A stretch of 64,000 nt of DNA from contig NZ_JAAZQJ010000012.1 in the NCBI RefSeq assembly GCF_012275375.1, positions 1 to 64,000 on the forward strand, read 5' to 3'. A program made the position numbers and the translations under genes. Below are positions 28,039 to 29,228 of the stretch, piece after piece. Within the stretch, counting starts at the first letter, position 1, and each line of letters opens with the position of its first letter. The notes below the pieces were generated by a model that did not search any database, was not told the DNA's origin, and saw only the letters and a list, made by a program, of their open reading frames with translations. Source of the stretch: Dyella sp. SG609. GTDB taxonomy: Bacteria; Pseudomonadota; Gammaproteobacteria; Xanthomonadales; Rhodanobacteraceae.

Positions 28039-28370
28039 CTGGTTTGCTCCTTGGAGAGTGAATGTCCGCATGGAACGCCCGGCACCCCGCCGGACCGGTC
28101 GATGGGACGCCTCCGGGATGCCGCCTGTCTGTCGGCGCAGCCCCCGCCGCACGGTAGGAAAAGCCTTACGTGAAGCTTGCGGTGAGGTTCGATTAACGGG
28201 GACTTGAGGGCCGGGCGGCTACCGTGGCCTGCGTCTGGACAGGAACCCTGTATTCCTGTACGATTCGGTTCAATAAAGCAGCCGGGATCACCCGCTGAGG
28301 AACTCCCGACCGCTTTAGCACTCTCACTGAGGGAGTGCTAAGCTGAATTCGACCCCAGGAGGATCCACAC
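28039..28370. other. rpoH upstream region
   Basis: About 330 bases without a gene separate the divergent small Cys-rich gene and rpoH. It contains the CIRCE element and a strong AGGAGG eight bases before the rpoH ATG. A TTCAATAAAG stretch near 28268-28277 could contribute a -10 box, but no good -35 was identified. Confidence 0.6.
28315..28341 (+). promoter_or_regulatory. CIRCE operator (HrcA binding site) upstream of rpoH
   Basis: TTAGCACTC at 28315-28323 and GAGTGCTAA at 28333-28341 form a perfect inverted repeat with a nine-base spacer. This is identical to the CIRCE consensus bound by the heat-shock repressor HrcA. It ends 29 bases before the rpoH start codon, in the expected promoter or leader. 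Confidence 0.92.

Positions 28371-29228
<858 letters not shown>

Follow-up and report, generated by a model that had tools for sequence, protein, structure and literature searches.

The heat-shock sigma factor (sigma-32, RpoH) is best known from Escherichia coli, and because hrcA had no match in E. coli in our control profile search, the control of rpoH is usually described without HrcA. Promoters of sigma-E (RpoE) have a GGAACTT-like -35 element, a gap of 15-17 bases and a TCNNA -10 element. In E. coli K-12, the sequence GAACTT-N16-TCTGA starts 120 bases before rpoH, which we take to be the rpoH P3 promoter, and no CIRCE was found upstream of this gene (the best site had 8 mismatches). In Xanthomonas campestris, the rpoH start was reportedly mapped by Bordes et al. 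in 2011 and found to be directly sigma-E dependent, with a consensus of GGAACT-N15-17-GTCNNA; HrcA and CIRCE are said to be unmentioned in the abstract of that work. Transcription of rpoH by sigma-E is classical in E. coli, where the available part of the source names P3 (PMC8103513).

A perfect CIRCE at position -51 before rpoH was predicted in Geobacter sulfurreducens (Rodionov et al. 2004, PMC545781, Table 8). As in the genome studied here, the CIRCE of G. sulfurreducens lies close to the rpoH start and the HrcA targets given in the available part of that paper are few and include groESL; the hrcA-grpE-dnaK-dnaJ genes of G. sulfurreducens also bear a CIRCE, whereas the hrcA gene of our genome does not. 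No mention of a sigma-E signature at rpoH of G. sulfurreducens was found in the same part of the paper. This was the only source with a CIRCE before rpoH in the literature searched, as far as the texts were available, and no paper joining HrcA or CIRCE with sigma-E at rpoH was found within the same limits, although Permina and Gelfand 2003 may already hold the CIRCE part. CIRCE before rpoH and sigma-E at rpoH were thus each known already; what appears to be new is a CIRCE nested in a sigma-E-type rpoH promoter.

The CIRCE element upstream of rpoH in Dyella sp. SG609

In the 64 kb stretch of Dyella sp. SG609 DNA analysed here (the window), a predicted HrcA operator was found on the forward strand at 28315-28341, with the sequence TTAGCACTC-TCACTGAGG-GAGTGCTAA, that is, a perfect 9-N9-9 dyad. 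It corresponded to the CIRCE pattern TTAGCACTC-N9-GAGTGCTAA upstream of a gene with 0 mismatches and was the sole match at up to 3 mismatches in the window, while 0 of 100 window shuffles contained one; likewise, no site at up to 3 mismatches appeared in 1780 shuffled upstream regions from the class. A gap of 29 bases (28342-28370) separates it from the ATG of rpoH at 28371, and a ribosome binding site, AGGAGG by sequence, lies in this gap at 28357-28362 on the same strand. The gene (28371-29228, forward strand) encodes a sigma-32 of 285 amino acids, matching TIGR02392 with 413 bits (cut-off 323) and NF005143 with 435 bits. The sequence-only reading of this DNA, which had placed a perfect CIRCE 29 bases ahead of the sigma-32 gene, was therefore confirmed in both respects.

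That reading also depended on an hrcA gene somewhere in the genome (5.13 Mb in 27 contigs, 99.8% complete), and one is encoded there, in an open frame of 369 amino acids matching TIGR00331 with 317.6 bits, over the curated cut-off. The whole-genome scan at up to 3 mismatches yielded only two CIRCEs, the one at rpoH and another at groESL, before groES (C11:100676), and none in front of hrcA itself. Both have the same dyad and the same spacing. The groESL region also contains, together with its CIRCE, a sigma-32-like promoter, CTTGAAA-N14-CCCCATT (L002, 1418-1445). A weaker, CTTGCAA-like sigma-32-type sequence was noticed at hrcA (L003, about 1408). A true rpoE is present as well (TIGR02939, 318.5 bits against a cut-off of 236). 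Fifteen matches to the RpoE model were obtained in this genome, one of them over the cut-off, and the remainder probably represent numerous further sigma factors of the ECF type.

A sigma-E-type promoter around the CIRCE

Analysis of the nucleotides surrounding the dyad indicated that the CIRCE is nested, at a fixed register, in a sequence with the pattern of a sigma-E promoter, GGAACTC-N16-TCTCA, spanning 28299-28326 on the forward strand. The predicted -35 element, GGAACTC (28299-28305), ends in C, as in some relatives, and is followed after 16 bases by the putative -10 element, TCTCA (28322-28326), which fits TCNNA; its first two bases are the final two of the left CIRCE half-site and its other three belong to the spacer. 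With the usual distance from the -10 element, transcription would start within 28331-28336, at the edge of the right half-site. The spacing is the same as that at E. coli rpoH, but of the two promoters only that of the window has a CIRCE.

Both parts of this signature are conserved. Among the 80 rpoH sites of the order Xanthomonadales described below, a GAAC starting -14 to -16 from the CIRCE was found in 74 (exactly at -15 in 58), an A at CIRCE position +11, the last base of the -10 element, in 70, and both in 68, leaving 12 sites that lacked one or both. Taken with the TC of the half-site, the order-wide form of the promoter is GGAACTY-N16-TCNNA. In contrast, 21 groESL CIRCEs used as a control, all of them with groES downstream, showed GAAC at -14 to -16 in no case and A at +11 in no case; all 21 begin with TTGG or CTGG. 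The signature was also frequent in the class sample (of 65 rpoH sites, 52 with GAAC and 53 with A at +11) and among the 113 rpoH loci listed by the contig scan (GAAC in 82, A in 90). A sigma-E-like motif upstream of rpoH was detected in 15 of the 19 order genomes without hrcA, compared with 63 of 2220 shuffled sequences, and in several of these genomes its distance from the gene is greater than in the window.

Another sequence, TGTACGATTCGGTTCA at 28257-28272, was noticed upstream of the sigma-E-type promoter, where it overlaps the -10 of a possible, weak sigma-70-like promoter, TGGACA-17-TACGAT (28236-28264, forward strand; 9 of 12 matches). The copy of TGTACNATNNNGTNCA in the window is the only exact match in the genome of Dyella sp. 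SG609.

Distribution of the arrangement

Matches to the RpoH family were obtained in all 200 genomes of the order, 192 of them over the cut-off, and the regions upstream of rpoH were read in 111 of the 200, the window included. Allowing up to 4 mismatches, and C or G at the seventh base of the half-site, a CIRCE or close variant was present before rpoH in 80 of these 111 regions, which is the outcome of the scan across Xanthomonadales that the sequence-only reading had proposed. By family, the site was found in 34/34 regions of f1, 31/35 of f2, 3/3 of f3, 6/7 of f4, 1/2 of f5, 1/1 of f6, 1/1 of f11 and 3/5 of f12, and in none of those of f7 (0/2), f8 (0/10), f9 (0/2) and f10 (0/9). The family of the window, f1, is most likely Rhodanobacteraceae; our guess for f2 is Xanthomonadaceae.

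When genome contigs were scanned for an exact CIRCE followed by an rpoH-like start, at least 120 stretches were retrieved, and RpoH was directly downstream in 113 of the 120 listed; because the scan pattern required rpoH-like codons, these numbers show breadth and not frequency. The listed loci include Dyella, Rhodanobacter, Luteibacter, Halieaceae, Thiothrix, Methylomonas, Ketobacter, Thiobacillus, Polynucleobacter, Zoogloea and a few deltaproteobacteria. The arrangement, which had been called unusual from the sequence, is thus widespread among relatives and not peculiar to Dyella sp. SG609: at least 113 loci carry it in gamma- and betaproteobacteria and some deltaproteobacteria, as do 60 of the 68 class genomes with hrcA in which the region upstream of rpoH was read, and it had already been listed for G. 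sulfurreducens in 2004 (PMC545781, as far as available). At three deltaproteobacterial loci (L135, L153 and L189), a TTGACA/TATA-like sequence of the sigma-70 type, with no sigma-E signature, stands just before the rpoH CIRCE. This suggests that the deltaproteobacterial sites may have had a separate origin or undergone a promoter swap.

Co-occurrence of the rpoH site with hrcA

The presence of hrcA was determined in 80 of the 111 order genomes, 61 of which had the gene and 19 of which did not. The rpoH site was found in 60 of the 61 genomes with hrcA and in 0 of the 19 without it, a comparison between related genomes, in the order as in the class, so that Fisher values overstate independence. 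The single exception (G121, locus L059) has hrcA and a CIRCE-like dyad before rpoH with a spacer of 6 bases. Its groESL CIRCE, unlike the rpoH site, has the usual spacing. In each of families f2, f4, f5 and f12, both states of hrcA and site occur, indicating that the association does not come from one deep split, the f4 case resting on a genome that is 87% complete (G062).

Within one genus of f2, three genomes without hrcA (G013, G151 and G165) had no CIRCE anywhere at up to 2 mismatches, even with C/G variants accepted, in contrast to four hrcA-bearing members of the same genus, which had two CIRCEs each. Upstream of rpoH, the three genomes keep the right half-site, whereas the left one is disrupted and an extra base lengthens the spacer; they also keep GAACTT-N16-TCCAA, at the place where the decayed CIRCE can still be made out.

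Of 369 genomes of the class, 270 had an hrcA match, over the cut-off in 262 of them, and 368 had a match to the RpoH family. The region upstream of rpoH was read in 89 of the 369, those with the best-scoring rpoH genes listed, and the sample is therefore not random. At up to 3 mismatches, the site was present in 60 of the 68 genomes with hrcA, leaving 8 of the 68 with no rpoH CIRCE at this threshold, and in 7 of the 21 without hrcA. Five of these seven genomes are only 62-79% complete, so that hrcA may simply have escaped assembly; the remaining two (G273 and G400, of one genus, 99 and 97% complete) lack hrcA and yet bear a 3-mismatch rpoH site. With genomes at least 90% complete, the proportions were 56/64 with hrcA against 2/15 without it at up to 3 mismatches, and 53/64 against 0/15 at up to 2. 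The distance from the site to rpoH was more variable in the class sample than in the order.

These patterns make it likely that HrcA is the ligand of the rpoH CIRCE, which would place rpoH under HrcA. The idea that HrcA and RpoH are wired in series is hence well backed by comparison, both by the order-wide counts and by the genus in which the loss of hrcA goes with decay of the site. The accompanying claim that release of HrcA raises RpoH directly was incomplete, since the sigma-E-type promoter had been missed; embedded as the operator is in that promoter, the release of HrcA would rather permit sigma-E-driven transcription of rpoH.

Proposed regulation of rpoH and alternative explanations

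We consider it probable that rpoH is transcribed from a sigma-E-type promoter with its -10 element inside the CIRCE and that HrcA occludes this promoter, forming a gate with two inputs. What was observed is the CIRCE, its constant position relative to the promoter signature, genes for HrcA and RpoE in the genome, the joint loss with hrcA and the breadth of the arrangement; the binding of HrcA, repression, the use of sigma-E and the start site are predicted. When GroEL capacity is in surplus, HrcA would be active and occupy 28315-28341, covering the -10 element and the start region, and RNA polymerase with sigma-E would be shut out. When misfolded protein draws GroEL off, HrcA would become inactive and leave the CIRCE, and any active sigma-E could then fire rpoH. 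Envelope stress, through sigma-E, and the folding state of the cytoplasm, through HrcA, would both be needed. As groESL has both a CIRCE and a sigma-32-like promoter, HrcA would restrain it directly and also through RpoH, in a coherent feed-forward loop.

In Caulobacter, HrcA depends on GroESL to stay folded and capable of binding CIRCE, according to the available part of PMC8119881, and by this dependence the rpoH promoter would be released when free GroEL runs short. When Xylella was starved of nitrogen, the level of hrcA RNA was up four-fold at 2 h and that of rpoH RNA was doubled at 8 and 12 h (PMC3224663, in the part available), and the rise of both is at odds with simple repression by HrcA.

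The inverted repeat might instead work as RNA, in the form of a hairpin in the rpoH leader that acts as thermometer or stabiliser, with a secondary role as DNA operator. The dyad is near the ribosome binding site, and many f2 rpoH sites carry changes in both arms (TTAGCAGTC-N9-GACTGCTAA) that also keep the pairing, as would be expected of a hairpin; however, one-armed changes at a number of sites break it, and a transcript starting at the right arm, where the sigma-E start is predicted, would be without the left one. The single leader stretch that was folded (28333-28430) folds no better than its shuffles (z +1.49), and none of the order genomes lacking hrcA has the site (0/19). For the last two reasons an RNA thermometer was dropped, and we regard an RNA role as very unlikely. 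It is somewhat less improbable, though still unlikely, that the CIRCE serves mainly as a roadblock to the sigma-70-like promoter at 28236-28264, the sigma-E signature then marking a minor promoter. The overlap of TGTACNATNNNGTNCA with the -10 of that promoter, its occurrence upstream of the rpoH site in 27 of 34 regions of the window's family and the sigma-70-type sequences at the three deltaproteobacterial loci would agree with this explanation, but TGTACNATNNNGTNCA is missing from all 46 rpoH regions with a CIRCE in other families, and the sigma-E signature is complete in 68 of 80 sites, with neither of its parts in the 21 groESL controls.

The rpoH CIRCE could also be a non-functional relic, with RpoH controlled only after transcription. 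In Rhizobium leguminosarum, one groESL operon bearing a CIRCE did not respond to deletion of the element or to an hrcA knockout (PMC3989490, in the part available), showing that a CIRCE need not be active, and partial sites are kept in some genomes without hrcA. Against this, the half-sites are kept across families while spacer and flanks vary, and absence of the site follows absence of hrcA, a combination that looks like purifying selection; a relic is in our judgement extremely improbable. All three explanations appear weaker than a sigma-E promoter occluded by HrcA.

If the nested operator works as proposed, HrcA and sigma-E would jointly set the synthesis of sigma-32, commonly so in gamma- and betaproteobacteria, one short DNA element would join three heat-shock regulators (HrcA, sigma-E and sigma-32), and the arrangement at E. 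coli rpoH may be the derived one. It seems to us an even chance that rpoH in the ancestor of the Gammaproteobacteria (as GTDB defines them, with the betaproteobacteria) had a sigma-E promoter whose -10 element held an HrcA operator, and that the sigma-E promoter of E. coli rpoH is the remnant of it following the loss of hrcA; if so, the nested gate survives in most lineages bearing hrcA. The natural losses of hrcA offer ready-made controls for the rpoH operator.

Variants of the site

In 4 of the 65 class rpoH sites GAAC lies near -30, and loci L312, L320, L249 and L266 combine a CIRCE before rpoH with a sigma-E-like -35 near this position, so that there the CIRCE would cover the start and not the -10 element. 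In f8 and f10 (e.g. L090 and L084), in which all the genomes tested for hrcA were without it, several rpoH regions have a TATAAT-like box near the start of rpoH, and any sigma-E-like motifs are farther upstream of the gene. Many rpoH sites of f2 (e.g. L060 and L057) are altered in a matching way on either side of the spacer, TTAGCAGTC-N9-GACTGCTAA, and the G of the left arm creates a GTC at the -10 element; the consensus reported for X. campestris sigma-E fits sites of this type. The same change is found in one arm only at some groESL sites of these genomes, suggesting that the specificity of HrcA may have drifted.
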